Positions 2,131-26,972 of a DNA stretch of 64,000 bases are shown one piece after another. How positions within the stretch are numbered: the first letter of the stretch is position 1; each line of letters opens with the position of its first letter. The stretch spans positions 62,001-126,000 of the forward strand of contig NZ_NOIH01000002.1 in the NCBI RefSeq assembly GCF_002245655.1, read 5' to 3'. The stretch is from Thauera propionica (GTDB taxonomy: Bacteria > Pseudomonadota > Gammaproteobacteria > Burkholderiales > Rhodocyclaceae). The notes below the pieces were generated by a model. The model saw only the letters and a list, made by a program, of their open reading frames with translations. It ran no database searches and had not been told where the DNA came from. Both the position numbers and the translations under genes were made by a program.

Positions 2131-2279
2131 TTCGGGTTTTCACTTCCTCATGACTGACGACCAAGGCGACGCACAGATGCGGCGCATGGTTGTCTTTTTT
2201 GACTCTTGACATTGGAATCACTTGGCGCCTCCGCGCTAAGCAAGCACGTTTCAGTAACTCACATTCAGAGATTCAAAGC

Positions 2280-3581
<1,302 letters not shown>

Positions 3582-3582
3582 C

Positions 3583-4641
3583 ATGCATTTCGCCCCCCCG
3601 ATCACCGACCGCAAGATCCGCTTCGCCCTCGTGGGTTGCGGCCGCATTGCGCAGAACCACTTTGCCGCAATAGAAAAGCACGCCGACCGCTGCGAACTCG
3701 TCGACGTCTGCGACATCAACCCCAGCGCACTTGCTGCAGCAGTCGAGAAGACCGGCGCCCGGGGCCACGCTCGCTTGGCCGATCTGCTGGAAACGACCAC
3801 CGCCGACTGCGTCATCCTTACCACCCCGAGCGGCCTGCATCCGACGCAAACCATCGAGGTGGCGGAGGCCGGCAAGCACGTGATGACCGAGAAGCCCATG
3901 GCCACCCGCTGGCAGGATGGCCTGAAGATGGTCGAAGCCTGTGACAAGGCTGGCGTACGCCTCTTTGTCGTCAAGCAGAACCGCCGCAACGCCACGCTGC
4001 AGTTGCTCAAGCGTGCCGTCGAACAGAAGCGCTTCGGCAAGATCTACAGCGTGGGGGTAAACGTCTTCTGGACCCGCCCCCAGGACTACTACGACAGCGC
4101 CAAATGGCGCGGCACCTGGGAATTCGACGGCGGTGCCTTCATGAACCAGGCCAGCCACTACATCGACCTTCTCGACTGGCTGATTGGCCCGGTCGAATCC
4201 GTCATGGCCTACACCGGTACCTTGGCGCGGGACATCGAGGTTGAAGACTCGGGCGTCGCCGCGCTACGGTGGCGCAGCGGAGCAATGGGCACGCTCAACG
4301 TCACCATGCTCACCTACCCCAAGAACCTCGAGGGCAGCATCACCATCCTCGGCGAAAAGGGCACGGTTCGCGTCGGCGGCGTGGCGGTAAACGAGATCCA
4401 GCACTGGGAGTTCGCCGAAACCCTACCCGAAGACACGGAGATCAAGCAGGCCAACTACGCCACCACCAGCGTGTATGGCTTTGGCCACCCGCTCTACTAC
4501 GACAACGTTATCAACACGCTGCGTGGCGAAGCCGAGGCTGAGACCGACGGTCGCGAAGGCCTCAAGAGCCTGGAACTCCTGATCGCGATGTACCTGTCTG
4601 CACGCGACGGCAAGCGCGTCGCCCTGCCCCTGGAATACTGA
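3583..4641 (+). CDS. wbpB: UDP-GlcNAcA 3-dehydrogenase (WbpB-type, Gfo/Idh/MocA family)
   Basis: Oxidises C3 of UDP-GlcNAcA with tightly bound NAD+ to give the 3-keto sugar used by the aminotransferase WbpE. In the characterised P. aeruginosa enzyme the NADH is recycled by 2-oxoglutarate. The 352-aa protein shows an N-terminal Rossmann fold (VGCGRIAQNHF), the family EKP motif (EKPMATRW) and a C-terminal alpha/beta Gfo/Idh/MocA domain. It lies directly between wbpA and an FAD-dependent oxidoreductase gene that standard wbp/wlb clusters do not contain. Family membership is certain; substrate assignment rests on the complete wbpABDEI context. Confidence 0.88.
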   Translation: MHFAPPITDRKIRFALVGCGRIAQNHFAAIEKHADRCELVDVCDINPSALAAAVEKTGARGHARLADLLETTTADCVILTTPSGLHPTQTIEVAEAGKHVMTEKPMATRWQDGLKMVEACDKAGVRLFVVKQNRRNATLQLLKRAVEQKRFGKIYSVGVNVFWTRPQDYYDSAKWRGTWEFDGGAFMNQASHYIDLLDWLIGPVESVMAYTGTLARDIEVEDSGVAALRWRSGAMGTLNVTMLTYPKNLEGSITILGEKGTVRVGGVAVNEIQHWEFAETLPEDTEIKQANYATTSVYGFGHPLYYDNVINTLRGEAEAETDGREGLKSLELLIAMYLSARDGKRVALPLEY

Positions 4642-4644
4642 TCC

Positions 4645-5685
4645 GTGCGTGTTGCCGTAGTCGGCGCCGGCATCGTGGGAGCGTGCACTGCATGGGCGCT
4701 CGTACGCAAAGGCGCGGAAGTGAGCCTGTTCGAGCGCAAGCACCCCATGACCGAAACCAGCCGCGCGTCGTCGAAACTGCTGCATGGCGGTCTTCGCTAC
4801 CTCGAGGGCGGCCACCTCTGTCTCGTGCGCAAATCATTACAGGCCCGTGCGGTATGGCTTCAGCAGGCACCACACCTTTGTGAACCCCTGCAGTTGCTGC
4901 TACCCGTGTACGCCGACGTCGGGCGCCCGCGTTGGATCGTCGGCATGGGCATCCGGCTCTACGATCTGCTGGCGCGGGGCAGCGGCTTTCCGAAGGGCCG
5001 ATGGCTGTCGGCGGAGGAAGTTGCAACACTCCAGCCCGGACTGCTCCGGAAAGGTTTGCAGGGCGCCTATGCCTTCTACGACGCACAGATGGATGACCAA
5101 GCCCTGGGCAACTGGGTCATCGAGCAATTCTGCGCCGCGGGCGGTACGCTGCAATGCGAGCATGAGATCGCTCAGATCGACGCCCTGAGCGGCTTCGACC
5201 GAATCGTCAATGCCGCGGGGCCATGGGCGCTCGATCTTCGCAGGACCCAGCCCGGCCCGCCGTCCTATGCACTGGACTGGGTGCGCGGCAGCCACATCGT
5301 GCTCGACCGCCCCTGCCCGGCAGCCATGTTGTTGCAGATCCCCGGCGAGAAGCGCATCTTCTTCGTGCTGCCCAGACGGAATCAGACCCTCATCGGCACA
5401 ACCGAGGTCCGCCAGCCTGGCCCCGACAACCCTGGCCCAAGCGAGAAGGAAATCGACTACCTACTCGACGCACACAACCACTACCTGACGCCGGTTGCCC
5501 TACGCAGCGACATGGTCGAAGCGTTTTCAGGCGTCCGCCCGCTGCTACGCAGTGCAGACAACCCCTCGGACGCTACCCGGGAATGGGCCTTCGAACGCGT
5601 CGGCAAGGTACTCCATATTTACGGCGGCAAATGGACAACCGCCCAACTGCAGGGCGAGGAAGCCGCAACAAGGATTCTCCAATGA
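4645..5685 (+). CDS. FAD-dependent oxidoreductase, short GlpD-like
   Basis: A 346-aa member of the DAO/GlpD flavoprotein family. It has an N-terminal FAD-binding motif ([13 protein letters not shown]), the GlpD-like segment [16 protein letters not shown] around residues 36-51, and a C-terminal FAD-contacting GGKWTT motif. Full GlpD enzymes are about 500 aa; the C-terminal helical domain is absent, so this is a shorter relative. It starts with GTG three bases after wbpB and ends in an ATGA overlap with wbpD, so it is embedded in the sugar-nucleotide operon. The substrate is unknown. A 2-hydroxy acid, such as the 2-hydroxyglutarate made when WbpB is recycled, or sn-glycerol 3-phosphate are both possible. 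Confidence 0.8.
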
Positions 5686-6272
5686 CACAACCCAACTACA
5701 CGGCACATCCTAGCGCCATCGTCGACGACGGCGCGCAGATCGGCGAAGGCTCGCGCGTCTGGCACTTCGCCCACGTCTGCGCCGGCGCCCGCATCGGCAA
5801 GGGCGTTTCGCTCGGCCAGAACGTCTTCGTCGGTAACAAGGTCGTCATCGGCGACAAATGCAAGGTCCAGAACAACGTCTCGGTCTACGACAACGTCACC
5901 CTGGAAGAAGGCGTGTTCTGCGGCCCTAGCATGGTCTTCACGAACGTTTACAATCCGCGCTCGCTCATCGAGCGCAAGAGCGAATACCGCGACACTCTGG
6001 TCAAGCGCGGCGCCACCCTGGGCGCCAACTGCACCATCGTATGCGGCACCACCATCGGCGAATTCGCCTTCGTCGGCGCCGGCGCCGTCATCAACAAGGA
6101 CGTCAAACCCTACGCCCTGATGGTCGGCGTGCCAGCCCGCCAGGTCGGCTGGATGAGCGAATACGGCGAACAGATCCCGCTGCCGGTGAAAGGCAAGGGC
6201 GAATACACCTGCCCGCACACCGGCCAACAATATCGACTCAACGACCAAATCCTGGAGCGCATCAGCAAATGA
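5682..6272 (+). CDS. wbpD: UDP-2-acetamido-3-amino-glucuronate N-acetyltransferase (WbpD-type)
   Basis: Acetyl-CoA-dependent transferase that acetylates the C3 amino group to give UDP-GlcNAc3NAcA. The 196-aa protein is a left-handed beta-helix enzyme: hexapeptide repeats run from about residue 10 to 155 (for example [35 protein letters not shown]). The start at ATG 5682 overlaps the previous stop as ATGA, indicating translational coupling. The order wbpD then wbpE fits the pathway, although chemically WbpE acts first. Confidence 0.9.
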
Positions 6273-7375
6273 GCATCCCCTTTATCGACCTCAAGGCCCA
6301 GTACCGCGCACTGCAACCGCAGATCCAGGCCCGCATCAATGCGGTCCTGGAGCACGGCCAATACATCATGGGGCCCGAGGTTCGCGAACTCGAAGAGCGC
6401 CTCGAGGCCTACACCGGTGCAAAGCATTGCATCACCGTCGCCAGCGGCACCGAGGCCCTCCTGATCAGCCTGATGGCCTTGGGTATCGGCCCCGGAGACG
6501 AAGTCATCACCACCCCGTTCACCTTCGTGGCCACCGCAGAGGTCATCGTCCTGCTTGGTGCCAAGCCGGTCTTCGTCGACATCGAACCCGACACCTGCAA
6601 CATCGATGCGAACCTGATCGAAGCCGCAATCACCCCGCGCACCAAGGCCATCATGCCGGTCAGCCTGTACGGCCAGCCGGCAGATATGGATGAGATCAAC
6701 GCCATCGCCGCGCGCCACGGCAATATCCCGGTGATCGAAGACGCCGCGCAGAGTTTTGGGGCCGAGTACAAGGGACGCAAGAGCTGCAACCTGTCCTCCA
6801 TCGGATGCACCAGCTTCTTCCCGAGCAAACCGCTGGGCTGTTATGGCGACGGCGGCGCAATCTTTACCAGCGACGACGCGATCGCACAGGCCTGCCGCGA
6901 GATCCGCGTTCACGGCCAGAGCAAGCGTTATGTGCACACCCGCGTCGGCGTCGGTGGGCGCATGGATACGCTGCAATGCGCGATCGTGCTCGCAAAGCTG
7001 GAGCGATTCGATTGGGAAATCGCACAGCGGCTCGAGATCGGTGCGCGATATAACCAGCTACTCGACGAAATCGGTTTCAAACGCGTAATCCAGCGCCCCG
7101 ACCGTACTTCTGTATACGGCCAGTTCACGGTGCTCTGCGAAGACAGGGAGGCGGTTCAGTCGTCATTCCAGAAGGCGGGCATCCCGACAGCGGTGCACTA
7201 CCCTGTTCCGCTGAACGAACAGCCGGCCTACAAGCATCTCTGCTGCCCGGATTGCACGCCTATTGCCAAAGAAACAGCAAAGAAGGTTATGAGCTTGCCG
7301 ATGAGCGCGGACTTTTCGTACGAAGATCAACGGACAGTCTGCAATCTCCTCAAGACTGGAGTTCATGATGCTTAA
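6269..7375 (+). CDS. wbpE: UDP-2-acetamido-3-keto-glucuronate aminotransferase (WbpE-type)
   Basis: PLP-dependent aminotransferase of the DegT/DnrJ/EryC1/StrS family that converts the 3-keto sugar to the 3-amino sugar using glutamate. The 368-aa protein carries the PLP-binding lysine at Lys187 in [14 protein letters not shown]. An acidic PLP-ring contact is present in [10 protein letters not shown], and the usual C-terminal substrate domain is complete. The start ATG overlaps the wbpD stop by 4 nt. Glutamate use would supply the 2-oxoglutarate that recycles WbpB. Confidence 0.9.
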
Positions 7376-8459
7376 GATCCTCACTATCGTCGGCGCCCGC
7401 CCGCAGTTCATCAAGGCGGCAGCCGTGTCGCGCGTCATTCGCAATGACCATGCAGGCACCATCGAAGAGTTCCTGGTTCATACAGGACAGCATTACGACA
7501 CAAATATGTCGCAGGTCTTCTTCGACGAGCTCGACATTCCACACCCGAAGTTCAATCTCGAGATTTCAGGCGGCACTCACGGTGTAATGACCGGGCGCAT
7601 GCTGGAAGCAATCGAGAATGTGCTGCTGTCGGAGAAACCTGATTGGGTTTTGATTTACGGCGATACCAACTCCACACTAGCCGGCGCACTGGCCGCGGCT
7701 AAGCTGCATATTCCTGTCGCCCACGTGGAGGCTGGACTGCGCTCGTTCAACATGCGGATGCCCGAAGAGATCAATCGCATCCTGGCGGACCGTGTCTCCA
7801 ACCTGCTTTTTTGTCCTACTGAAGTCGCAGTGGAAAACCTGGCACGGGAAGGCGTTACGAAGGGCGTATCACTCGTCGGTGACGTGATGTACGACGTATC
7901 CCTGTACTACCGTGATGTCGCGCGATCGCGTAGCGATGCGCTCGATCGCTTCAACCTCAAGGAAGGTGAATACGTGCTCGCAACCTGCCATCGGGCAGAG
8001 AACACGGACGATCCTACCCGGCTTCGCGAAATCGGACTCGCACTTGCAGATCTTGCAGCCAATCAAGCAGTGATCCTTCCGGTTCACCCACGAACAGCGA
8101 AGATAATGGCAGACCAAGGACTCATCGCAGCTATGCGAAACGTAAAGCTGGTCGATCCCTTGCCTTTTCTCGACATGATTCGCCTTGAACAGTCCGCGCG
8201 CGTGATTGTCACCGACTCAGGTGGCGTGCAGAAGGAGGCTTTTTTCTATGATGTCCCTTGCGTCACGATGCGTGATGAAACCGAATGGGTGGAAACCGTG
8301 GAACTGGGCTGGAATGTTCTGACAGGTGCATCACGGGAACGAATCCTGTCAGCTGCATCCTCGCCTGCTCGACCTGTAGGGAAGGGCCATCATCCATACG
8401 GACACGGAGACGCGAGTGCCATGATCGTCAGACAGCTTCTTGCAGGCGGACTCTGCTAA
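7365..8459 (+). CDS. wbpI: UDP-GlcNAc3NAcA 2-epimerase (WbpI-type)
   Basis: Non-hydrolysing UDP-GlcNAc 2-epimerase-family enzyme, predicted to convert UDP-GlcNAc3NAcA to UDP-ManNAc3NAcA, the last step of the pathway. The 364-aa protein retains the family landmarks: VGARPQFIKAA, YGDTNSTLAG, HVEAGLRSF, MPEEINR and CHRAENTD, which carry the catalytic Asp, Glu and His residues. Two ATGs (7365 and 7368) are possible; both overlap the wbpE stop. It resembles the second epimerase at 12648 in every motif, so substrate assignment depends on position in the operon. It is followed by 96 bp and a fall in GC. Confidence 0.88.
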   Translation: MMLKILTIVGARPQFIKAAAVSRVIRNDHAGTIEEFLVHTGQHYDTNMSQVFFDELDIPHPKFNLEISGGTHGVMTGRMLEAIENVLLSEKPDWVLIYGDTNSTLAGALAAAKLHIPVAHVEAGLRSFNMRMPEEINRILADRVSNLLFCPTEVAVENLAREGVTKGVSLVGDVMYDVSLYYRDVARSRSDALDRFNLKEGEYVLATCHRAENTDDPTRLREIGLALADLAANQAVILPVHPRTAKIMADQGLIAAMRNVKLVDPLPFLDMIRLEQSARVIVTDSGGVQKEAFFYDVPCVTMRDETEWVETVELGWNVLTGASRERILSAASSPARPVGKGHHPYGHGDASAMIVRQLLAGGLC

Positions 8460-8555
8460 CCGAGCTCTTGTTTTTGACGACTCTCTCAGAGGGGACAGCC
8501 CTCTTCCATTCGCGACAACCTTTGCTGCCCTGTGCCCTAGCCAGATACGATAAAT

Positions 8556-9338
8556 ATGAAAGCTGCATTTGAATTGTGGAAATACCGGCGAACACTGTTC
8601 GCAACCGCATGGAGCGACATCCGCGGGAAGTATCGCGGGACCTTCCTCGGCATGGGGTGGAGCATCTTATACCCTATCGTTTTTCTTATTCTCTACGCAG
8701 TCGTTTACCTTTTTATTTTCAAGATCCGACTTCCAAACTATACACCTTTTGAGTACATACTTCTCATATTCTCAGGGCTAATCCCTTTCCTCGGTTTTTC
8801 GGAGTCATTATCCACAGGAGTCGGCTCAGTACTTGCCAATCGGGGACTGATTCGCAACACAATGTTCCCGATTGAGCTGGTACCCGTAAAAGCCGTCCTC
8901 GCCTCCAGCGTCACTATGATAGTGGGCCTTTCCATATTGCTGCCTATCCTGTGGCTACGCGGAACGATACTCCCTAGCCAAGCCCTTATTCCTCTCCTTC
9001 TTGTTCTGCAGCTCGTCTTTACTATCGGGTTGATTTGGCTCCTTTCTGCGCTGAATGTATTTTTTCAGGACATAGGACAGATGACTGGCGTTATGATTCT
9101 TTTCCTGATGCTAGTGTCGCCGATTGCTTATACACAGGACATGATACCAGCAGCCCTTATGCCGTTGATGTATCCTAATCCGCTCTTTTACATGATCATG
9201 CTCTATCGCGACACAATCATTCTCGGTGAAATCCCATTGGACCTGCTAGGCATCTTCACCTTAATTTCCCTAACTACCTTTTTCTCCGGGTACTACGTCT
9301 TCAATCGCCTCAAGTCCCTCTTTGCTGACTATGTCTGA
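8556..9338 (+). CDS. wzm: O-antigen/polysaccharide ABC transporter permease (Wzm-type)
   Basis: A 260-aa inner-membrane permease of the ABC-2 type. About six hydrophobic helices are visible, and the cytoplasmic N-terminus carries the family motif around WSDIRGKYRGTFLGMGWSI. It exports a complete undecaprenyl-linked polysaccharide with the ATPase encoded next, which it overlaps by 8 bp. Base composition is clearly more AT-rich than the wbp genes upstream. Presence of this pair and absence of Wzx/Wzy in the window point to ABC-dependent assembly. Confidence 0.9.
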   Translation: MKAAFELWKYRRTLFATAWSDIRGKYRGTFLGMGWSILYPIVFLILYAVVYLFIFKIRLPNYTPFEYILLIFSGLIPFLGFSESLSTGVGSVLANRGLIRNTMFPIELVPVKAVLASSVTMIVGLSILLPILWLRGTILPSQALIPLLLVLQLVFTIGLIWLLSALNVFFQDIGQMTGVMILFLMLVSPIAYTQDMIPAALMPLMYPNPLFYMIMLYRDTIILGEIPLDLLGIFTLISLTTFFSGYYVFNRLKSLFADYV

Positions 9339-11127
9339 TATCGCCATTCGCGCAACTCGCGTCTCCAAGATGTACAAGATGTTCAAGTCACGCCGGGACC
9401 AGGTTATCGACCTACTCGGATTGCCTTTCTTCAAGGGACGTCATGATGAGTTCTGGGCACTGAGGGATCTCGATCTCGTGGTCCCACGCGGCGGCAAAAT
9501 CGGCATCATTGGGCACAACGGAGCAGGCAAGAGCACGCTCTTAAAGATCATTGCCGGTCAAGTCACACCAAGCTCAGGCCAGGTCGAGGTAAATGGCAGG
9601 GTTCAGGCCCTTATGGAGTTGGGAACGGGATTCCACCCAGAATTCACCGGTAGGGAGAACGTTTTCTCGGCCCTTAGCTATCAGGGCATTGTCGGTACCG
9701 CAGCGCGGAGAAGATTCGATGAGATCGTCGAATTCTCTGAACTGGAGGAATTCATCGACAACCCCGTAAAGACTTACTCGGCAGGAATGTACGCACGCCT
9801 TGCCTTTTCTGTCGCAACTGCAATAGAGCCAGAAATACTCATTATTGATGAAGTCCTCGGTGCAGGTGACGCGTACTTTGCAGGAAAATGCGTTGACCGC
9901 ATGAACGAGATAACTCGGAAAGAAGGAGCGACCATCCTCTTTGTGAGTCACGACGCCTCTTCAGTCTTGCGCCTATGCGATCGCTCAATTTGGATGAAGA
10001 AGGGCCGCTGTATCATGGACGGCCCAGCGCACGAGGTCGTAAAGGAGTATGTCGATGCAATGCGGTTCGAAACAGAACTTCGGCACCGATCCCGCGAAAT
10101 GCATCTCGGAAAGGGGACCGCTCGAGGCATCATGGCCTCAAGCGACGCATTTAAAAAATTTCTTTTTCGCTTCAAGGTTAACGGTGAGCATCCGCAACGC
10201 AGTCATCTCATACGCCGAATAACGCTCCAAAAGGGGGAATCCGCCCTATCAAGCCTAGACGTCGGCGACGCGATGGATAATGCGATTCAAGAACCCAATT
10301 ACATCATTTCCGAGAAAGATGCAACCGATTGGTCCCAACCCATCCAAGACAATGGTGGTCTTGCGCGTCTCTATTGCGACTGCCGGGGTACCGAGCAGCA
10401 CGCTCCATTCGTGCTGTCGGTCCCTGCATATCTTAGGAGCGAACTTCCGGAACTTCTATTGGTGGTAGAGGGTGATGTCGATGCGCGGGAAGAGGTTTTC
10501 GTCGAGATCTGGGATGACGCGGGTCATTACACACGTGTTGGGACACTGAATGACCAAGGCAACGGGCGATATGCTATCCCGCTATCAGACCGCGCAATCG
10601 ATGAACCGAATACGCCATCGGCTTGCAAAAGTAGTGCTGTCTCCAAAACGCAATCCCAAACGGAGGACGAATTCTCTCCAGATCGAGTACTGGCGATCAC
10701 GCAAGTAGAGTTGACCGACTCCACGGGCACATCAAAGCGCGTCTTCCCAATGGGGACAGAACTCGACGTCACGATTCACTATGAGGCATTTCGTGAGGTT
10801 AAAGATCCTGTCTTCGCGGTCACGTTCCATCGCCTCGACGGGGTGCAGATGGATCATAAGAACAGCAAGCTACTTAACTTCAACATAGGCAATGTAATGG
10901 GCACTGGCGTTGCGAAATTTTCCTTTTCGCCACTACGACTCGGCCCAGGAGACTATCTCGTTACAGTTGCAGTTTTGAAATATTTAGATATCGATAGCTG
11001 GATCGATCAACCACCCAGCTATGACCGTCACGACCGACGCTATTCATTCTCTGTTTTCTCGACTCTCCCAGGAGCAAAGAACTTAGGCGCGGTCTTCCAA
11101 GACTGCTCCTTCATCTTCACTAATTGA
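9331..11127 (+). CDS. wzt: O-antigen ABC transporter ATPase with extended C-terminal region (Wzt-type)
   Basis: The 598-aa ATPase powers the Wzm permease. The nucleotide-binding domain (1-245) has Walker A GHNGAGKST (61-69), signature YSAGMYARLAFS (149-160), Walker B EILIIDEVLGAGD (168-180) and switch His207. Residues 451-578 resemble the Wzt carbohydrate-binding domain that recognises chain ends. Between them lies an extra predicted beta-rich region (about 265-425), joined by a Ser/Gln-rich linker. Typical Wzt proteins are 400-470 aa, so the insert is unusual. Start ATG 9331 is preferred to TTG 9322. The next gene, a sulfotransferase, follows after 12 nt and may make the group this domain reads. 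Confidence 0.9.
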   Translation: MSDIAIRATRVSKMYKMFKSRRDQVIDLLGLPFFKGRHDEFWALRDLDLVVPRGGKIGIIGHNGAGKSTLLKIIAGQVTPSSGQVEVNGRVQALMELGTGFHPEFTGRENVFSALSYQGIVGTAARRRFDEIVEFSELEEFIDNPVKTYSAGMYARLAFSVATAIEPEILIIDEVLGAGDAYFAGKCVDRMNEITRKEGATILFVSHDASSVLRLCDRSIWMKKGRCIMDGPAHEVVKEYVDAMRFETELRHRSREMHLGKGTARGIMASSDAFKKFLFRFKVNGEHPQRSHLIRRITLQKGESALSSLDVGDAMDNAIQEPNYIISEKDATDWSQPIQDNGGLARLYCDCRGTEQHAPFVLSVPAYLRSELPELLLVVEGDVDAREEVFVEIWDDAGHYTRVGTLNDQGNGRYAIPLSDRAIDEPNTPSACKSSAVSKTQSQTEDEFSPDRVLAITQVELTDSTGTSKRVFPMGTELDVTIHYEAFREVKDPVFAVTFHRLDGVQMDHKNSKLLNFNIGNVMGTGVAKFSFSPLRLGPGDYLVTVAVLKYLDIDSWIDQPPSYDRHDRRYSFSVFSTLPGAKNLGAVFQDCSFIFTN

Positions 11128-11139
11128 CAAAACAGCCTC

Positions 11140-12636
11140 ATGAGCATGCAGATAGAGAGAACGGTGCTAATTGGGGGCACACCTAGCAGTGGATCGACGC
11201 TTTTGAGCGTAATGCTCGACGCTCACCCTGAGATACATTGCGGCCCCGAGATCGGGCTACTCGCAAATTCTGCCCTATACTCGGCTGATTTCAGGGCAAC
11301 AGCCCAAAATCTGTGCAAACGTCTGCAGCCACATGAGTGGCAAAAGAACGACGCGCTTGCGAATCTCGAGGCAGGGTTTTGCCCTTATGCACTCATTGAT
11401 GAATCAAACCTTGCGTCTTATGACCATAGCTTGGGTTCGGTATTGCATCTGCTCTCATATTGCGAGTCGGTGACATCCTTTCTAGAGCGCCTTTATATGA
11501 GCGCGTACTCAAGGCACGGCAAAGCCATATGGGCTGAGAAGACGCCATCTAATCTTTATGCTTTCGAGGCCTTCCTAAACCACTTCCCGGCAGGACGAGT
11601 CCTCTATGTCGTTCGCGACCCTCGCGCGGTCATTGCAAGTCTTCTCAAGCGGGGGATGAGTCTACGTCGCGCTATATCGATCTGGTTAGTTGAGGTTGCG
11701 ATATGCGAGCGACTTGCCAGTCATCCACGTGTATTGCGCGTGAAGTATGAAGAGCTGGTACAGGACACAGCGAGCACCCTCCACAGGGTAATAACATTTC
11801 TGAATGTCGCTCCAGAAATCAGCACGATGCTCCGTTACAACGAGACGTCTGATCGAATTAATAACGACACTACCCTCAAGTCCCTGGAAAGCTGGAATGC
11901 CAACCCAACACAGCCTATTACGAAGAAGGCGCTTGACGCCTGGAGAGGGGATCTTGACTCCACAACGTTGAGCATTTTGGCTCACAGTGAAGTGGTGCGC
12001 GCGCCTGATCAGATGCAGTGGGCTGAGGGCATCAGACTTTTCGACCTCGCAGCACGGCTCGGGTATGCTTTAGATCATGCGCCTGCCAGCGAGGCGGACG
12101 TATGGGAAAGGCTTATTGGCGAGCGCCTGCTTTGTATAAAGGAGCAGGTGTTCGACTCCAATGTTTTTCATGAGCGCTTTGTTGAATCGCACCCAATCCT
12201 CACGCGAAAATTGAGCGCAAACCTCTGGACGGCTGTCGTCGATGGAACAAGAGCCTCCTATGGCATTGACAGGCAGTTGCATGATGAGCTTCGGCGCGTT
12301 CGCTCAGTCTGCGACCATTGGTATCATGAGCACTCAAAAGCCAATCAAGCGTTGTCTGAAATGAGCGCCTCGAAGGATGATCTTGAGCGTCGGTTCGCAT
12401 CGATCGTCACCGAAAACGTAAGCCTCAAGGCCGAAATAGCTAAGCTTAAGTCGGTTTATACGCAGCAAAGCCCAGTAGCTGACAGCCAGAGTTCCGACAT
12501 TCTACAATTCGACGAGAAAGATTTCGCAGACGTGCGTTCTCAATTCCGCCACGAATCGACCACGATACGAGTCATCTTTAGAAGGATGCATCGTCGAATC
12601 CGAAGATTCGCGAAGCGGATTATTGATTCAATATAG
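11140..12636 (+). CDS. Sulfotransferase-family protein with C-terminal coiled coil
   Basis: A 498-aa protein whose N-terminal 300 residues look like a PAPS-dependent sulfotransferase. The 5'-phosphosulfate loop is GGTPSSGSTLL (12-22) and the 3'-phosphate segment is VVRDPRAVIASLLKRG (157-172). Residues about 380-440 have the heptad pattern of a coiled coil. The last 20 residues (477-498) form a basic amphipathic segment (RRMHRRIRRFAKR) suited to membrane contact. The acceptor is unknown; position just after wzt suggests modification of the exported polysaccharide, possibly its non-reducing end. No PAPS synthesis genes are in the window. Start could be ATG 11140 or 11146. Confidence 0.78.
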   Translation: MSMQIERTVLIGGTPSSGSTLLSVMLDAHPEIHCGPEIGLLANSALYSADFRATAQNLCKRLQPHEWQKNDALANLEAGFCPYALIDESNLASYDHSLGSVLHLLSYCESVTSFLERLYMSAYSRHGKAIWAEKTPSNLYAFEAFLNHFPAGRVLYVVRDPRAVIASLLKRGMSLRRAISIWLVEVAICERLASHPRVLRVKYEELVQDTASTLHRVITFLNVAPEISTMLRYNETSDRINNDTTLKSLESWNANPTQPITKKALDAWRGDLDSTTLSILAHSEVVRAPDQMQWAEGIRLFDLAARLGYALDHAPASEADVWERLIGERLLCIKEQVFDSNVFHERFVESHPILTRKLSANLWTAVVDGTRASYGIDRQLHDELRRVRSVCDHWYHEHSKANQALSEMSASKDDLERRFASIVTENVSLKAEIAKLKSVYTQQSPVADSQSSDILQFDEKDFADVRSQFRHESTTIRVIFRRMHRRIRRFAKRIIDSI

Positions 12637-12647
12637 AGGTATTTTCA

Positions 12648-13718
12648 ATGATTCTAATGAGAGTTGTAGGTGCGCGGCCACAGTTCATGCAGGAAATCGC
12701 TTTTCGCCACGAAGTAGATATACGAGGCTATCGCGAGATCTTAGTGCATACCGGGCAGCATTATGACGAAAAAATGAGCCAGATCTTCTTCGACGACCTA
12801 GGCATACCTAGACCCGATATCAATATTGGCGTCGGCTCTGGTAGCCATGGCCATCAGACTGGGCGCATGCTCGGGTCGCTCGACGACATTATTGAAGAGT
12901 ATCGACCCGACGTGCTCGTTGTAGACGGAGACACAAACTCAACACTAGCAGGCGCGTTAGCTGCCGCCAAGATGCACGTGCCTCTGGTACATGTAGAAGC
13001 CGGCTTACGCAGTTTTGATCGCAGAATGCCGGAAGAGGTCAATCGCGTTATTGCAGACCACCTCGCTAATCTCCTTTGCGCCCCTACACCGACCGCAGTC
13101 CGCAACCTTAGCCAAGAGGGGCTCAGCGACCATGTCGTGCTAACTGGCGACCTCATGTATGACTGCTTCATGCACTTCAGGGATCAAGCCGACAGCACAG
13201 CAATCTCCCGGTGTGGAGTAGCTGACACTGACTTTCTGCTCGCAACAGTCCATCGAGCGGAAAACACCGATAACCCTGAGCGTTTCGCAGAAATTATATC
13301 TGGACTTATGTCGCTGCCTCTCCCCGTGATCATCCCCGCTCACCCGCGGATTCGCGGTCAGCTCGAACGCATTACTAAAACGCTAATCGGACGAGATAAT
13401 CTGATCATTATTGATCCGGTTGGCTATCTCCAAATGCTTGCGCTCGAGCAACAAGCGAAATGTATTCTGACAGACTCCGGCGGAGTACAACGAGAAGCAT
13501 TCTTTGCGGGCAAGCCATCAATTATTCTCCGTGACACCACGGAATGGAGGGAGCAGATTGACAGTGGCTGGTCATATCTCTCGGGAGCGAGCGCAAGCGC
13601 TATCTCCCTTGCTTACGAATCGGTCTGTGGATGCGACATGCCGACTCAGCCCCAGATATACGGGGACGGCAAGGCGGCAGCAAAAGTCTTGACTGCCATC
13701 GAGGAGTTCCTTCGGTGA
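12648..13718 (+). CDS. UDP-HexNAc 2-epimerase family protein (WecB/WbpI-like), second copy
   Basis: A 356-aa non-hydrolysing 2-epimerase with all family motifs: VGARPQFMQE, DGDTNSTLAG, HVEAGLRSFDRRMPEE and VHRAENTD. It is a paralogue of the gene at 7365 but lies in the AT-richer part of the locus with the sulfotransferase and glycosyltransferases. It probably acts on a different sugar nucleotide, such as UDP-GlcNAc to UDP-ManNAc, or on another uronate. The following glycosyltransferase gene overlaps its stop codon. Confidence 0.85.
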   Translation: MILMRVVGARPQFMQEIAFRHEVDIRGYREILVHTGQHYDEKMSQIFFDDLGIPRPDINIGVGSGSHGHQTGRMLGSLDDIIEEYRPDVLVVDGDTNSTLAGALAAAKMHVPLVHVEAGLRSFDRRMPEEVNRVIADHLANLLCAPTPTAVRNLSQEGLSDHVVLTGDLMYDCFMHFRDQADSTAISRCGVADTDFLLATVHRAENTDNPERFAEIISGLMSLPLPVIIPAHPRIRGQLERITKTLIGRDNLIIIDPVGYLQMLALEQQAKCILTDSGGVQREAFFAGKPSIILRDTTEWREQIDSGWSYLSGASASAISLAYESVCGCDMPTQPQIYGDGKAAAKVLTAIEEFLR

Positions 13719-14740
13719 GAATCCTGCATGGCCCCCAGAATATCGGCGGCATGGCGGGGGTGCTTGCGAGGGCACAACGGCTATGTGGGATCGATGCATA
13801 CTCCTACTGCTACCCGACTGGGAACTTTCAGTACTCGGCCGATCGACTTATTCAAAGCAACGGGTCTGGCGCTCGCGCCCGAGAAATCATGGACTTTTTC
13901 CTCCACGAGGGTAGGTCTTACGACGGATTTCAGTTTTATTTCGGCTCATCTTTCGCAGGACTCAGTCTAGCTGACGTTCCCATCCTCAAGGCCTTGGGCA
14001 AAAAAGTTTACTTCTATTTTTGCGGCTGCGACGTGCGCGACAGCAAGATTACGATTCAAAAGTATAGATTTAGTGCCTGTCATCACTGCTGGCCAATGCT
14101 CTGCAGCCCTAATCGCGCCAAGGCAATTGAGGTTGCGGAACGCTATGGTGACGCCGTTTTCGTGAGCACCCCCGATCTTTTGGAGTTCGTTCCAGGCGCG
14201 GTGCTGTTGCCCCAGCCAATCGATCTCGAGATGTTCGGTCCAATTCGTGAGCAGGCTCTGCTTCGGGCCGCGACTCGATCGGCCGCGGATCCAGTCCGGG
14301 TTGTACACGCACCGTCCAGTCAAGCGATCAAGGGGACCAGATTTTTGCTTGATGCAATCGAGTCGCTCAAGAATGGAGGAGCCCATATCGAGCTCGTTCT
14401 AGTCGAAGGAAAGAGTTATGCAGAAGCGATGCGGATTTGCGCTTCGGCTGACATCGTCGTTGATCAGTTGCTTGTGGGAGCATATGGACAGTACGCCGTT
14501 GAGATGATGGCGCTCGGCAAACCAGTCGTCTGCTACATTCGCGAGGATCTTTTGAAGCATTACCCGAACGAACTCCCGATTGTCTCTGCAAACATCGAGA
14601 ACATTGCCTATGTCCTACGTGATTTGATTGATGATCGCGCAAGATGGGCTGAATTGGAGAGGCGGGGACTGGAATATGTTGAGCGCAATCACGAAAGCAC
14701 AGCTGTTGCGCGAAAGTCAATAGAGAACTATGTGAGATGA
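13715..14740 (+). CDS. Glycosyltransferase-like protein with cysteine cluster
   Basis: A 341-aa protein with an N-terminal segment VRILHGPQNIGGMAG and a C-terminal GT-B-type domain (VVHAPSSQAIKGTRF, then VVDQLLVGAYGQYAVEMMALGKPVVCY), typical of retaining glycosyltransferases that bind a nucleotide sugar. GTG 13715 is preferred because it overlaps the previous stop (GTGA) and precedes the first conserved strand. Five cysteines cluster in the middle (Cys103, 105, 122, 125, 130), which suggests a metal site or structural disulfides. Donor and acceptor are unknown. Confidence 0.7.
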   Translation: MRILHGPQNIGGMAGVLARAQRLCGIDAYSYCYPTGNFQYSADRLIQSNGSGARAREIMDFFLHEGRSYDGFQFYFGSSFAGLSLADVPILKALGKKVYFYFCGCDVRDSKITIQKYRFSACHHCWPMLCSPNRAKAIEVAERYGDAVFVSTPDLLEFVPGAVLLPQPIDLEMFGPIREQALLRAATRSAADPVRVVHAPSSQAIKGTRFLLDAIESLKNGGAHIELVLVEGKSYAEAMRICASADIVVDQLLVGAYGQYAVEMMALGKPVVCYIREDLLKHYPNELPIVSANIENIAYVLRDLIDDRARWAELERRGLEYVERNHESTAVARKSIENYVR

Positions 14741-14747
14741 GGCGCCA

Positions 14748-16178
14748 ATGAGAATTGTCATGCTCACCGACGATATACAGGTCGATCGCCGGATACTGCT
14801 TGAAGCGGAGTCGCTCCATCGCGAGGGCCACGAGATCATCCTACTCGCCGAGCATGCGGAGGGTTGTAGGGATTTCGAGCGACTAGGCAACGTCAAGGTC
14901 GAGCGGTTACGAGCTTCAGGGCCATCTCGCGAGGAGCTCGTGGTGCTGAAGGCGTTAAACTTTGTCAACAGGGGGATTGGTTTTTTTAGTTCCTTAGTAC
15001 AACGGGGACTGAGTTCTTTATCACGCCTAAGTTCCGCTTTTTTTTCTCTTATCATTCAAGCTATCCAGCGAATTGTCGGACTCTTCAGTTCCGTAGTGCA
15101 GACGGGGTTAAGTCTTTTATCACGTATAAGTTCTGTTTTTTTTTCCCTTCTCATTCGAGCAAATCAGAGAATTAGCGTCTTTTTCCTTAGAGCTATTCGC
15201 CACGCAAAGCGCCTCCCTCCGCGCGAGCAGACGATGGTTGAGCGGATAGTTTTTTACCGTGCGGATGTTATCCATGCGCACGATCTACCGCAACTTCGCG
15301 CCGGCGCTGTCGCAAAGAAGCTGCTGAAGGTACCGCTTATTTACGACGCACATGAGCTCTACCCGGAGATCGGAACCCTCACTTCGGACCAGAAGCGGGC
15401 TCTTTCTCGCCGAGAACGACGTTACGTGCGATGTGCCGATGCAGTTATTACTGTGAACAAGTACATCGCCGAGGAGATGAAGAAGCGGTACTCGATTGAC
15501 CTTCCTCACGTGATCCTCAATGCGACGAATTGGCCGACTGAACCTAGGCTGCGGGAGCATGCTGACAGGTTCCGCGAGAAGTTTCACATTCCCCTCGATC
15601 ATCGGATCGTGCTGTTCCAAGGATGGATGTCATCGCAGCGAGGGCTTCAACCAATGGTCAAGGCGATGCGCATGCTTCCCGCCGAGTTTCATCTTGTCTT
15701 CATGGGGTACGGCGAAGGGAGAGACGAGCTGATACGTATCGCACATGAAGAGGGGCTGACGTCGCGAGTTCATTTCATGGATGCTGTACCTCAGTCCGAA
15801 TTGCTCAACTGGACGAGTTCAGCTGATGTCGGCGTGATTCCTTATCAGCCGATCGATTTGAACAATTACTACTGCTCCCCAAATAAACTCTTTGAATTCA
15901 TACAAGCTGAACTGCCTATCATCGCCAACGATCTCCCGTTCTTAAGAGACGTGGTGATGGGTGAGGGCTTCGGACTCGTGCATCGTTTGGAAGAACCGTC
16001 AGACTACGCAGCGGCTGTGTCCCGCATGTTTGACGGAGACACACTTACGCGCTGTAAGGGCCAGCTGAGATCAAGAAGCTCAGAGTATTCCTGGGACAAG
16101 GAAGAGAAGATTCTGATTGAAGTGTACTCGAAGCTTTCCATAAGAGAGGACGCCTCTCCAGCGCTGCAAGCGCCTTAG
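14748..16178 (+). CDS. Glycosyltransferase family 4-like protein with internal tandem repeat
   Basis: A 476-aa glycosyltransferase related to the one at 18338 (shared starts LTDDIQVDRRILLEAESL and LTADRQIDRRILLEADSL, shared ends around CSPNKLFEFI and CTPNKLFEFI). The C-terminal half is a GT-B donor domain. The N-terminal domain contains two 33-residue repeats (78-110 and 111-143) rich in Phe, Ser and Leu, followed by a basic stretch, which add amphipathic, probably membrane-associated helices. This makes the protein longer than its 409-aa paralogue. It starts 7 nt after the previous stop. Confidence 0.8.
   Translation: MRIVMLTDDIQVDRRILLEAESLHREGHEIILLAEHAEGCRDFERLGNVKVERLRASGPSREELVVLKALNFVNRGIGFFSSLVQRGLSSLSRLSSAFFSLIIQAIQRIVGLFSSVVQTGLSLLSRISSVFFSLLIRANQRISVFFLRAIRHAKRLPPREQTMVERIVFYRADVIHAHDLPQLRAGAVAKKLLKVPLIYDAHELYPEIGTLTSDQKRALSRRERRYVRCADAVITVNKYIAEEMKKRYSIDLPHVILNATNWPTEPRLREHADRFREKFHIPLDHRIVLFQGWMSSQRGLQPMVKAMRMLPAEFHLVFMGYGEGRDELIRIAHEEGLTSRVHFMDAVPQSELLNWTSSADVGVIPYQPIDLNNYYCSPNKLFEFIQAELPIIANDLPFLRDVVMGEGFGLVHRLEEPSDYAAAVSRMFDGDTLTRCKGQLRSRSSEYSWDKEEKILIEVYSKLSIREDASPALQAP
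14979..15176 (+). repeat. 99-bp in-frame tandem duplication inside a glycosyltransferase gene
   Basis: Two copies of a 99-bp unit, 14979-15077 and 15078-15176, are recognisable at the DNA level by shared blocks such as AGTTCC and TTTATCACG at an offset of exactly 99. Each encodes 33 residues; both begin with Gly-Phe/Leu-Phe-Ser-Ser and end before the next copy. The copies have diverged, so the duplication is not recent. Confidence 0.8.
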
Positions 16179-16428
16179 TATGGCTCTTTTCCCTATCCGT
16201 TGATTAAATGCGCCTTTCTTTTAAGGGTTTTTCAAGGCGCTTTCGAAGGCGCCACTGAGCTTTAACACGAGTAGTCGGCAGTATTCTGTCGCCTAATGTG
16301 GCGAAGGGCTTGATGCACCCATCCGGGATATGAGTTTCGTGCGCTGTGTACGCACGCTGTCTTTCTACTGATAGATTCGAGTCTTTTCCAAGTAAGGATT
16401 GACTCGTTTGAGTGCGGGAGTACAAAGT
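16179..16428. other. Intergenic region with competing hairpins upstream of an amidotransferase gene
   Basis: The 250-bp gap separates two plus-strand genes. At 16210-16253 two overlapping hairpins can form but exclude each other: GCGCCTT (16210-16216) with AAGGCGC (16234-16240), and GGCGC (16236-16240) with GCGCC near 16249-16253. No U-run follows. Possibly a transcriptional break or attenuator within the cluster; no clear promoter is seen. Confidence 0.35.
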
Positions 16429-18345
16429 ATGTGTGGTTTTGTTGGACTGCTCGGCCATAATTCTGAGAGCGAGGAAGCTGGTGCAGTTTTGCGGCGCATG
16501 ATGGCCAGCATTGGACATCGGGGGCCTGACGGCGAAGGTGAGTTCAGGGAGATAAGCCCACGCATCCACCTCGGACATCGGCGCTTGGCAATCATCGATC
16601 CGGAGCACGGCAGGCAGCCGATGAGCACTGAGGATGGTGAGCTTACTATTGTGTTCAATGGCGCGATCTACAATTATTTGGAGTTGCGGCGCGAACTCCT
16701 TCGAATGGGACATCCTATCCACTCCTACTCCGATACGGAGGTATTGCTTTACGCGTATCGTCAGTGGGGCGAGCACTGCGTTGACCGCTTTCTTGGGATG
16801 TTTTCTTTCGCGATCTGGGATAGGCGAAATCGACGTTTGTTTTGCGCACGTGATCGGATCGGAATCAAACCCTTCTACTACGCATTTGACGGAAGAACGC
16901 TTGCGTTCGGCTCCGAGATCAAGGCAATCCTCGCGTCTGGCGTGGTGAAAGCGGAGGCGGACAGGCCAGGACTGCAGGACTACCTCACGTTCCAGTTCTG
17001 CTTGGGCGACAAGACGCTCTTCAAGAATATCCTCAAGCTGGAGCCGGGCCATTGCATGACGGTCCAGTTCGATGGCGATCGCCTTTCGCTGCATACGCGG
17101 CAGTACTGGGATCTCAGGTATGAGATCGACGAAGGGCACGACGAGCGCTGGTTTGTGGACCATCTCGCAGGCCTGATCGAAGACGCCACCCGTATGCATT
17201 TGCGTTCGGACGTTCCGCTGGGCGCACATCTCTCCGGCGGCCTGGACTCAAGCACCGTCGTATGTCTGGCCGCCGGTCTGTTGCAGGGTGAACGGATCAA
17301 GACCTTTACCGGGGCCTTTCCGGAAGGTCCGCAGTTCGACGAAACGGGCTATGCGAAAGAGGTATCCTCGTTTGCGGGGACAGACTACAAGGAGATCTAC
17401 ATTCAGGGCTCTGAGCTGCCCGATGTTCTCCCGAAGCTGATGTACTACATGGACGAGCCGCTGGCGGGGCCAGGAGTCATTCCGCAGTACTACGTGTCGA
17501 AGCTCGCATCGGAGCATGTGAAGGTCGTACTCGGGGGGCAGGGTGGCGACGAACTCTTCATCGGCTATACGCGCTATCTGGTTGCGTACCTCGAGAAGTG
17601 CCTTGCCGGCGCGATCTATCAGACCGCTGACCAGCATCGATACGCGGTCTCCCTGGAATCGATTGTCCCGAACCTGCCGCTTCTGCAGACCTATCGCCCA
17701 ATGCTCCAGGGGTTCTGGAGCAAGGGGCTATTCGATGCACCTGACAAGCGCTACTTCAGCTTGATCGACCGTAGCGAAGGCATGAACCACCTGTTCAGCA
17801 ACGACCTGTTCTCGAGTGGCTATTCGCCCTTCGAGTCTTTCCAGCAGATCTTCAATCGCGATGGACTGCATTCGCTCATCAATCGGATGACCTATTTCGA
17901 TCTGAAGGGCTCGTTGCCGGCTTTGCTCCACGTGGAGGATCGCACGAGCATGGCGGCATCGATCGAGTCGCGCGTCCCCTTGCTGGATCACCGTATCGTG
18001 GAGTTCATGGCGACCATTCCGCCGAATATCAAGTTCGCCGGCGGTCGCATGAAGCATCTGTTCAAGGAAGCCGTTCGTAACACGGTGCCGAAGAAGATCT
18101 TCGACCGTCAGGACAAGATGGGCTTCCCGACACCGCTCGCGCAGTGGACGAAGGGCGTAGCACGCGAGTTCGTACGGGATATCCTGCTTTCCGATCGAGT
18201 TCGGCAACGGGGTATCTATAACGTCAATGCGATCGAACGTGCAATTGACAGCGAACGCGAGTTCGGGCGCGTGGTCTGGGGGCTGCTGTGTCTCGAGCTC
18301 TGGCACCGGATCTTCATTGACGGAGACATGAAGGTCAATGCCTGA
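16429..18345 (+). CDS. Asparagine synthase (glutamine-hydrolysing)-type amidotransferase
   Basis: A 638-aa AsnB-family protein. Translation must start at ATG 16429 because the class II glutaminase needs its cysteine as residue 2 (MCGFVGLLG); a GGGAG ribosome-binding site lies about 8 nt upstream. The N-terminal glutaminase domain supplies ammonia. The synthetase domain has the ATP pyrophosphatase loop SGGLDSS at 269-275. In surface polysaccharide loci such proteins (WbpS-like) usually amidate uronic acids, which fits the uronic-acid pathway upstream. It overlaps the next glycosyltransferase gene by 8 nt. True asparagine synthesis is an alternative but less likely here. Confidence 0.85.
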   Translation: MCGFVGLLGHNSESEEAGAVLRRMMASIGHRGPDGEGEFREISPRIHLGHRRLAIIDPEHGRQPMSTEDGELTIVFNGAIYNYLELRRELLRMGHPIHSYSDTEVLLYAYRQWGEHCVDRFLGMFSFAIWDRRNRRLFCARDRIGIKPFYYAFDGRTLAFGSEIKAILASGVVKAEADRPGLQDYLTFQFCLGDKTLFKNILKLEPGHCMTVQFDGDRLSLHTRQYWDLRYEIDEGHDERWFVDHLAGLIEDATRMHLRSDVPLGAHLSGGLDSSTVVCLAAGLLQGERIKTFTGAFPEGPQFDETGYAKEVSSFAGTDYKEIYIQGSELPDVLPKLMYYMDEPLAGPGVIPQYYVSKLASEHVKVVLGGQGGDELFIGYTRYLVAYLEKCLAGAIYQTADQHRYAVSLESIVPNLPLLQTYRPMLQGFWSKGLFDAPDKRYFSLIDRSEGMNHLFSNDLFSSGYSPFESFQQIFNRDGLHSLINRMTYFDLKGSLPALLHVEDRTSMAASIESRVPLLDHRIVEFMATIPPNIKFAGGRMKHLFKEAVRNTVPKKIFDRQDKMGFPTPLAQWTKGVAREFVRDILLSDRVRQRGIYNVNAIERAIDSEREFGRVVWGLLCLELWHRIFIDGDMKVNA

Positions 18346-19567
18346 GTCGAAGCATGCAGCTAAGTCGGTAGTGATGCTAACCGCCGACCGTCAGATCGAC
18401 CGACGCATTCTGCTCGAGGCAGACAGTCTCGAGGCCGCAGGTTGGGTGGTTACGATCGTCGCGATGCCCCTCGATTCGGCACGGGATGACGGGGACCGTC
18501 GGATCGTGCGACTGTCTGCCGGCAGCGCGGCAACGCGTGAGAACCTGGTTCTACAGGCCTATCGTTGGATCAGGGGTACGATTCCGATGAATGGATTCGC
18601 CATGCGCACGCTGAAGCGTCTGACTTGGCGTTATCTGGTGGATCAGGAGGCGTTCTTTGTCCGACTCTTCGCGGCTACGGCAGCACGCTACTCGCCTGAT
18701 GTGTTTGTGGCGCATGACTTGCCAATGCTCGCCGTTGCCCGACTGCAGGCGGAACGCTGTGGGGCGAAGCTCGTCTATGACAGCCATGAACTCTACTGCG
18801 AGCAGGAGTTCTCCGAACGCGAGCGGAAGCGCTGGGCTCAAATCGAAGCAAAGCACATCCGTGCCTGTAATGCGGTGATCACGGTCAATGCGTCAATTGC
18901 AGCGGAACTTGAAAAACGGTATGGAATAGGCCGTGTGGGCGTGATCCACAACGCGGACCGTGCATCAGCGCCGCCGGAGCCCACCAAACTCTTCCATACG
19001 CGATTCAAGCTTCCAGAGTCAACGCGGATTCTGCTCCTCCAGGGAGGGTTGTCGGCGGGACGCAACCTGGAATCGCTCGTTGCAGCGATGGCCCATGTCC
19101 GCGACGATTCGATTGCACTGATCATCCTCGGCGATGGTGCGCTCTCTAAACCACTGGCGGCGAAAGTGAAGGAGCTCAAGCTAGGCGGTCGTGTTTTCTT
19201 CCACCCTGCCGTCGCACAGGAAGAACTGCCACGTTACACGGCGGCTGCAGATGCTGGCGTCATCCCCTATCAAGCTACGTGTCTTAACAATTACCTCTGT
19301 ACGCCAAACAAGCTCTTCGAGTTCATCGCCGCCGGGCTCCCGATCCTTGCCAGTGATTTGCCTGAGATAACGAAAATGGTCAAAGGGCGCGACATTGGCC
19401 TGGTTGGCGACATGAGCGCCCCTGAAACCATAGGCCGATTAATTGAAGATTTTTTTGGTGACACGACGCGCCTCTCAACGTGGAAACGAAACGTGTCTCT
19501 TGTACGGAACGATGTTTGCTGGGAAGTCGAGGGTCAGAAGCTTGTCGCTATCTACGACGAACTTTGA
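18338..19567 (+). CDS. Glycosyltransferase family 4-like protein
   Basis: A 409-aa GT-B glycosyltransferase. The N-terminal domain contains the conserved LVYDSHELYCEQEFSER segment, and the C-terminal donor domain contains LLQGGLSAGRNLESLV and the end motif NNYLCTPNKLFEFIAAG. It is a paralogue of the protein at 14748 but lacks the tandem repeats. Its ATG overlaps the amidotransferase stop codon, indicating coupled translation. The sugar donor is unknown. Confidence 0.85.
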   Translation: MPESKHAAKSVVMLTADRQIDRRILLEADSLEAAGWVVTIVAMPLDSARDDGDRRIVRLSAGSAATRENLVLQAYRWIRGTIPMNGFAMRTLKRLTWRYLVDQEAFFVRLFAATAARYSPDVFVAHDLPMLAVARLQAERCGAKLVYDSHELYCEQEFSERERKRWAQIEAKHIRACNAVITVNASIAAELEKRYGIGRVGVIHNADRASAPPEPTKLFHTRFKLPESTRILLLQGGLSAGRNLESLVAAMAHVRDDSIALIILGDGALSKPLAAKVKELKLGGRVFFHPAVAQEELPRYTAAADAGVIPYQATCLNNYLCTPNKLFEFIAAGLPILASDLPEITKMVKGRDIGLVGDMSAPETIGRLIEDFFGDTTRLSTWKRNVSLVRNDVCWEVEGQKLVAIYDEL

Positions 19568-26381: not shown

Positions 26382-26972
26382 TTGAAAACATACGCCCCCG
26401 CCTCCGACCTGCTCTTCCCAAACCAGTACCGGCGCAAGGTGTTGGGACTGTTGCTCATGCGGCCCGACCAGCAGATTCATTTACGCGAGCTTGCAAGGAT
26501 GATCGGGGCCGCACCGGGAACACTGAAGAAGGAGCTGGATGCGCTTTGCGAAGCGGATTTGCTGCGTGCCGAGCGCACCGGCAACCAAGTGCGGTTCTGT
26601 GCAAACACCGAACATCCCGTATTCCCCGAGTTGCAGGCCTTGATCAGAAAGACGATAGGTCTTGCCGACACCCTGAGGCTGAGCTTGGCCCCGCTCGCCG
26701 ACCGGATCGACGCAGCCTTCATCTTCGGCTCCATGGCCAGCGGAACTGAAAACGCCAGTAGCGACATCGACCTCATGGTGGTCGGCAATGCCAGCTTCGC
26801 CGAAATCGTCGATGCGACCTACGAGGCACAACTCGCGCTAGGGCGCGAGATCAATCCCAAGGTGATGAGCACGCGCGAGTGGCAGACGAAGAAGGCCGAG
26901 CGCAACGCCTTCCTTCAGGACGTGCTGCACAAGCCCCGGATCATGCTGATCGGAAACGCCGATGCCCTCTGA
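26382..26972 (+). CDS. Winged-helix/nucleotidyltransferase fusion (MNT-type antitoxin candidate)
   Basis: A 196-aa protein with an N-terminal winged helix-turn-helix (about residues 10-75) and a C-terminal minimal nucleotidyltransferase domain. The latter has the family motif FGSMASGTENASSDIDLMVVG in two pieces: GS near residue 111, and the catalytic Asp pair in SDIDLMVV. MNT proteins paired with HEPN proteins act as antitoxins, in studied cases by AMPylating the toxin; the DNA-binding domain suggests autorepression. The start is TTG 26382, as no ATG precedes the helix-turn-helix. It overlaps the HEPN-like gene by 11 nt. Confidence 0.78.
   Translation: MKTYAPASDLLFPNQYRRKVLGLLLMRPDQQIHLRELARMIGAAPGTLKKELDALCEADLLRAERTGNQVRFCANTEHPVFPELQALIRKTIGLADTLRLSLAPLADRIDAAFIFGSMASGTENASSDIDLMVVGNASFAEIVDATYEAQLALGREINPKVMSTREWQTKKAERNAFLQDVLHKPRIMLIGNADAL

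Follow-up and report, generated by a model that had tools for sequence, protein, structure and literature searches.

A putative sulfotransferase-type chain terminator beside an ABC-type polysaccharide exporter in Thauera propionica

Directly behind the wzt gene of an ABC-type polysaccharide exporter, within a 64,000-nucleotide stretch of the Thauera propionica genome (hereafter the window), we found a gene for a 498-residue sulfotransferase homolog that probably represents a WbdD-like polymerase-terminator mechanism in sulfate-type form. The full model towards which we lean, with some reserve, is that the protein would terminate the chains of a surface polysaccharide exported by the ABC transporter, probably an O antigen. 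In the cytoplasm its sulfotransferase-type head would modify, most likely by sulfation, the lipid-linked chain at its non-reducing end, and a coiled coil together with a basic C-terminal helix would keep this head away from the membrane-bound polymerase, so that only chains of sufficient length would be capped. The carbohydrate-binding module (CBM) of the adjoining Wzt would then recognise the capped end and admit the chain to export. Sulfate as the transferred group, the end position, the ruler function and the recognition by Wzt are all features that we infer. Coordinates are collected in Table 1.

Table 1. Features of the exporter region and of the putative terminator, in window coordinates.
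Feature	Position	Strand	Basis or remark
Divergent cassette (wzm, wzt, sulfotransferase, wecB2, GT1, GT2, start of asnB)	8430..16569	+	DNA identity, GC
wzm, ABC-2 type permease of the exporter	8556..9338	+	PF01061 1.5e-10
Extended wzt (601 aa) with ATPase, middle region of ~200 aa and CBM at the C-terminus	9322..11127	+	PF00005 1.7e-21, PF14524
Wzt_C carbohydrate-binding module, residues 458-579	10693..11058	+	PF14524 3.1e-17
Putative sulfotransferase-type chain terminator	11140..12636	+	498 aa, ATG start
Sulfotransferase domain, residues 9-223	11164..11808	+	PF13469 (Sulfotransfer_3) E 1.8e-23
5'-phosphosulfate loop GGTPSSGST, residues 12-20; Ser16 at the usual Arg/Lys site	11173..11199	+	
3'-phosphate motif VVRDPRAVIAS, residues 157-167; Arg159 and Ser167 retained	11608..11640	+	Invariant alignment columns
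Long helix, coiled-coil candidate, residues 376-443	12265..12468	+	AlphaFold2; heptad score at 405-442
C-terminal helix 454-497, its end forming a basic amphipathic tail (about 477-498)	12499..12630	+	AlphaFold2; hydrophobic moment
Second WecB-type UDP-sugar 2-epimerase (wecB2)	12648..13718	+	TIGR00236 1.1e-82; 55% identity in L200
GT1, probable glycosyltransferase	13631..14740	+	GT-family matches under curated cut-offs; 52% in L200
GT2, GT4-like glycosyltransferase	14748..16178	+	PF13439 1.2e-15, PF13692 1.5e-13; 37.5% in L200

Fold, catalytic residues and C-terminal helices

The match of the protein to PF13469 scores 84.4 bits, above the curated cut-off of 27, and its best solved relatives by sequence are tyrosylprotein sulfotransferases (E 1.9e-12). 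The fold points the same way: with an AlphaFold2 model built from a 30-sequence alignment (mean pLDDT 77.2), the top 13 Foldseek matches were all tyrosylprotein sulfotransferases (E 7.2e-11 to 3.9e-9, probability 1.00, target TM-score 0.55-0.69). In ten-residue blocks the pLDDT of residues 1-310 is 84-98, but 54-68 at 61-90 and 241-260, and residues 330-376 are poorly predicted. A model from the single sequence was poor (mean pLDDT 41.7) and was left out of use. Both the sulfotransferase identity and the placement of the gene, 12 nt past the wzt stop (11127), agree with the initial annotation. Searches of Pfam and NCBIfam at E 0.01 returned no methyltransferase or kinase match for the protein.

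PAPS motifs had been proposed at residues 12-22 and 157-172, and both regions are present, the first without the usual Arg or Lys. Glu37, Lys134, Arg159 and Ser167 align with catalytic or PAP-binding residues of TPST-type enzymes, Glu37 presumably being, by alignment to TPST, the general base. All four are retained in three of three orthologs (the window protein and two metagenomic relatives, L200 and L201, described below) and are invariant in the 30-sequence alignment. The same three orthologs carry Ser in the PAPS loop, at the site of the Lys or Arg that is said, in an excerpt of PMC11625862, to stabilise the transition state. Among 50 sampled loci (drawn from 79, with 29 dropped, mostly as near-duplicates by name) the loop residue is Arg in 47, Ser in 2, both of them the orthologs, and unreadable in 1. 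A separate tally of 57 readable rows, in which some genes are counted twice through overlapping loci and beside which 17 more rows were unreadable, gave Arg 47, Lys 5, Gly 2, His 1, Tyr 1 and the single Ser of the window. Decay of the loop in one genome is ruled out by the Ser in all three orthologs, which makes it a fixed trait of a small subfamily. Could the protein nonetheless be a sulfotransferase fold that no longer transfers sulfate, as a pseudoenzyme or with another donor, and that serves as a scaffold or ruler or adds another group? The shared Ser would suit such a role, since 52 of the 57 readable rows have Arg or Lys there. We consider this quite unlikely, given the four intact residues; a conserved subfamily whose remainder is intact is unlike decay. 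We therefore speak of a sulfotransferase homolog with presumed activity and not of a proven sulfotransferase, because the loop lacks its Arg or Lys, and we take the enzyme to be active, with sulfate as the putative donor group. An APS kinase is encoded in the source genome, so the organism can probably make PAPS.

The initial annotation had also described a heptad-like stretch at about 380-440 and a basic amphipathic C-terminus at 477-498, and had named structure prediction of the full protein as a check. The model contains the long helix at 376-443 (pLDDT 64-80 across 381-440), within a few residues of the stretch described, and our heptad score, a heuristic of our own, has its maximum inside it at 405-442. 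This maximum was matched by 13 of 2000 shuffles of residues 290-498. An equally high score occurs in 40 of 1006 mechanically called ORFs from 118 surveyed loci, so that the score by itself is moderate evidence; we hold the short predicted coil of the window protein with moderate confidence. The C-terminal helix is predicted at a pLDDT of about 56-73. In the tail, the final 30 residues have a net charge of +8 and a hydrophobic moment of 0.99, and the window protein alone among the 1006 ORFs reaches at least 0.93. The L200 ortholog has no such basic amphipathic tail (charge +1, moment 0.55). Two methyltransferases that occupy the same position in same-genus genomes (L027 and L028, see below) have tails that are basic but less amphipathic (moments 0.62 and 0.44). 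Homology of the sulfotransferase C-terminus to the coils of these methyltransferases was considered and is unsupported, as a tblastn search with residues 301-498 alone gave no match in L027, L028, L200 or L201.

Gene cluster, orthologs and the same slot in the genus

The gene lies in a polysaccharide cluster. Upstream of wzm are wbpA/B-type, FAD oxidoreductase, wbpD-, wbpE- and wbpI-type genes, the wbp names being assigned from the domain types. The genes downstream of GT2 encode two AsnB-like proteins, the first an amidotransferase, each followed by a glycosyltransferase, then an epimerase, a bacterial sugar transferase and a Polysacc_synt_2 enzyme. The C-terminal part of the window Wzt shows weak matches (0.0024 and 0.0029) to two solved ABC-transporter chains, 144 and 151 aa long. 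None of the 19 window proteins scanned with Pfam, a set that omits the wbpI-type gene (7365-8459) and the genes past 26972, matched a methyltransferase or kinase, which leaves the sulfotransferase as the only candidate cap enzyme found among them.

Several other features of the region were recorded. The cluster holds two WecB-type epimerases (7365-8459 and 12648-13718), a pair also seen in L200. GT2 has an internal hydrophobic stretch of ~80 residues, apparently duplicated (FSSLVQRGLSSLSRLSSAFFSLI / FSSVVQTGLSLLSRISSVFFSLL), before its first Pfam match at 141. At 26382-28169, within the cluster, a nucleotidyltransferase-domain gene (PF18765) is followed by small genes that by eye resemble HEPN and RelBE-type toxin-antitoxin pairs. 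The DNA some 4-7 kb upstream of the window holds a Sulfotransfer_1 gene (PF00685 1.5e-27; L029:9986-10813) and a 311-aa ORF (L029:12179-13114) that resembles ORFs adjoining similar sulfotransferase genes in L016 and L017.

The subfamily looks rare, with three loci known here. A contig scan with the window protein alone as query found no genomes. A ten-sequence alignment was too diverse to yield a pattern, and a three-sequence alignment, used instead, gave 79 loci with two outliers: L200, from a MAG of an uncultured gammaproteobacterium (2e-81, residues 9-442), and L201, from a MAG with the label Armatimonadetes (5e-77, residues 1-348). The best of the remaining matches was at 7e-22. A 1e-20 search of 398 genomes of the phylum matched the window's own genome only, a search of 29 same-genus genomes at 1e-3 gave no other match to the subfamily, and plasmid records gave two weak partial matches. 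The L200 sulfotransferase is 35% identical over residues 9-442, coil region included; it has a scored coil at 392-442 and a weaker heptad signal on to its end at 517. Its genes run wecB, wzm, wzt (a 636-aa ORF with Wzt_C), sulfotransferase, wecB and two glycosyltransferases, with AsnB further on, so that the order from wzm through the two glycosyltransferases is collinear with that of the window.

The Wzt proteins of these loci allow the ATPase and the CBM to be compared separately. The window ATPase is 54.6, 54.9 and 54.4% identical to those of L200, L027 and L028 (58.3, 54.3 and 53.8% with alternative trimming). The CBM is 56.9% identical to that of L200 and 31.7 and 31.4% identical to those of L027 and L028. 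Among 2791 pairs with 50-60% ATPase identity, drawn from 117 Wzt proteins, window and L200 have the top CBM alignment score, and two pairs reach a CBM identity of at least 55%. L200 also has wecB2 and the glycosyltransferases, and the CBM likeness may hence track the glycan and not the cap. In L201 no coil was scored for the sulfotransferase, and the contig has a single Wzt-like gene, ~4 kb upstream, which is without a Wzt_C match. The three cases, with the shared glycosyltransferases and epimerase as a confounder in L200, would be in keeping with joint gain or loss of coil and binding module.

A search with the C-terminal part of the window Wzt matched 3 of 297 family genomes, its own and two of the same genus. 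In these two, the gene after wzt (L027, 9512-11200; L028, 9526-11421) encodes a SAM methyltransferase (PF08241/PF13649) with a coiled coil and a basic tail. DNA identity between the window and L027 is 87% from 2246 to 8429 and 95.7% from 16570 to 19070, and it breaks off at 8429 and 16570; between these, the sole DNA alignment is a 67% patch in the wzt ATPase. Protein identities to L027 and L028 follow the same borders: 96 and 85% for wbpI and 93 and 88% for asnB on the flanks, 44 and 44% for wzm and 55 and 54% for the Wzt ATPase in the cassette, where the sulfotransferase had no match in the protein comparison with either locus. GC is 0.516 in 8430-16569, 0.607 in 2246-8429 and 0.578 in 16570-19070. 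Exporter, slot gene and glycosyltransferases thus differ as one block, for which an exchange would be the simplest account. At L089, another Wzt_C locus of the genus, no gene of either the sulfotransferase or the methyltransferase type was called after Wzt. L027 (12565-16860) and L028 (3857-8128) encode a protein of ~1430 aa between the cassette glycosyltransferase and asnB; the L027 copy, the one scanned, has glucuronyl C5-epimerase and transglutaminase-like domains.

The WbdD-like role that the initial annotation had suggested gains from this comparison: the slot holds a methyltransferase with coil and tail in the two related genomes, the Wzt CBM varies with the slot enzyme, and the 19 scanned proteins contain no methyltransferase or kinase. 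The tail is not kept in L200, the closest ortholog with a coil. The same evidence bears on whether the enzyme might modify something else, such as a protein tyrosine, a lipid carrier or a core sugar, and be merely housed in the cluster. In favour of this, tyrosylprotein sulfotransferases are its closest solved relatives, and there are further genes of the sulfotransferase type 4-7 kb upstream of the window. Yet the 12-nt distance from wzt, the collinear wzm-wzt-wecB-GT order in L200 and a block difference that takes in the exporter make this very improbable in our view.

Genes after Wzt_C-bearing wzt across the family

Wzt_C was detected in 99 of 249 family genomes, at 118 places. The survey was mechanical: ORFs ran from the first start codon to the stop, coils were called by our heuristic, and a domain-matching ORF near the Wzt stop (within -2500 to +400 nt) was preferred as slot gene. 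The gene after Wzt was a methyltransferase with coil in 24 loci and without coil in 17, a sulfotransferase with coil in 3 and without coil in 8; the rest were other genes (51), other genes with coil (8), no ORF (5) or no full Wzt (2). A coil was scored in 27 of 52 slot methyltransferase or sulfotransferase genes, compared with 72 of 1006 ORFs at these loci, slot genes included. Ten of the 11 sulfotransferase-type slot genes are at or above a curated Pfam cut-off, L132 barely so (27.1 against 27), and L122 is below.

The coil-bearing sulfotransferase genes of L122 and L051 were rejected as members of the subfamily, having a different loop, GMHRSGTS (in L051, in the second domain). L122 is moreover under every Pfam sulfotransferase cut-off and thus only weakly a sulfotransferase. 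Both genes follow Wzt and have a coil, but with a loop of another type they are parallels only. In L051 (11442-13550) the Wzt itself has a Wzt_C module, under the curated cut-off in one scan and at it in another, and behind it, in the same protein, a GT2 glycosyltransferase domain; the protein encoded next has a coil and a basic tail besides its two sulfotransferase domains. L132 (6398-8944) has, directly after Wzt, a single ORF with a methyltransferase domain and a marginal sulfotransferase domain, and L169 (4414-7267) has three successive sulfotransferase-like genes after Wzt, the third below the Pfam cut-offs.

An ordinary polysaccharide sulfotransferase might also be found in such a position. 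It would sulfate internal residues, in some or every repeat, before export, and its coil would just oligomerise the enzyme or tether it to the synthase. In Cobetia marina a sulfated capsule goes with a cluster that has an ABC transporter, PAPS and sulfotransferase genes, according to an excerpt of PMC11766843. Additionally, 8 of the 11 slot sulfotransferase-type genes have no scored coil, and adjacency to Wzt alone thus needs no ruler. Against this, the slot holds a methyltransferase-coiled-coil protein in two same-genus genomes, with a Wzt module that differs along with it, and no Wzt_C match occurs in the Wzt-like neighbour of the coil-less ortholog L201. We regard an ordinary sulfotransferase as rather unlikely for the window, though likelier than the pseudoenzyme or a different target.

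If the chain-terminator reading is true, a new end-cap chemistry would be added to the polymerase-terminator mechanism, and a capping enzyme and its reader, the Wzt module, would have been swapped as one cassette between near-identical flanks. The genus would also offer a natural pair, methyl-type and sulfate-type at one locus, for studying how ABC exporters recognise finished chains. A bolder idea, which we hold tentatively and with more doubt than belief, is that sulfate, or another group added by a sulfotransferase fold, is a recurrent and independently evolved O-antigen end cap, with heads swapped together with the matching Wzt module and with one variant, that of the window, working without the Arg or Lys usual in the PAPS loop. 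Repeat-unit chemistry can easily overlook a single sulfate per chain, and known clusters in which a sulfotransferase after wzt has no explanation so far, ORF19 of Aeromonas salmonicida for example, may therefore be capped in this way too.

Comparison with known systems

The 2019 Glycobiology census of terminators by Mann, Kimber and Whitfield reportedly mentions, in its abstract, new chemistries that were predicted. A sulfate-type terminator may be a novelty, or may already have been predicted there. Our searches of a CC-licensed library, to which that census does not belong, listed no paper tying a sulfotransferase to chain termination, and the excerpted text of PMC11231755 has no word starting with 'sulf'.

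In E. coli O9a and Klebsiella, as excerpts of PMC3482155 and PMC11231755 describe, the terminator caps the chain end, a coil spaces it from the membrane-near polymerase, and the Wzt module reads the cap. According to the same excerpts, WbdD (E. coli O9a/O8) has an N-terminal catalytic part, a helical coiled coil and a membrane-proximal C-terminus, and is encoded with Wzm and a CBM-bearing Wzt. The window protein shares this layout, with a predicted coil and a C-terminus that would be near the membrane. WbdD is, however, a kinase-methyltransferase or methyltransferase, whereas the window protein is a sulfotransferase homolog with a shorter coil and with putative polymerase recruitment and chain-end chemistry. 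By its predicted domains, with neither a methyltransferase nor a kinase, it is outside the WbdD family proper.

TPST1/2 have the fold and motifs of the window protein, which differs in having Ser for the PAPS-loop Arg, in being bacterial and in its coil and tail; a protein acceptor is not expected. A. salmonicida offers a parallel in position: in the excerpted description of its wbsalmo cluster, of the ABC-type O-antigen kind, ORF19 (216 aa, with a sulfotransferase domain) comes directly after Wzt (ORF18) and is not among the mutants listed. Unlike the window protein, and as far as that description goes, since the two are likened by description and not by sequence, it is small and stand-alone, and a WbbB homologue comes after it.

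Within the genus, the methyltransferase-coil proteins of L027 and L028 share with the window protein the position after wzt, a similar coil score and a basic tail. They differ in being SAM methyltransferases beside Wzt proteins whose CBM is only 31-32% identical, and their part as terminators is likewise a putative one. Finally, the Kdo-type terminators of K. pneumoniae O4/O12 (GT137, WbbB), as presented in excerpts of PMC11231755, follow the same coil-ruler plan with another chemistry, that of a glycosyltransferase.
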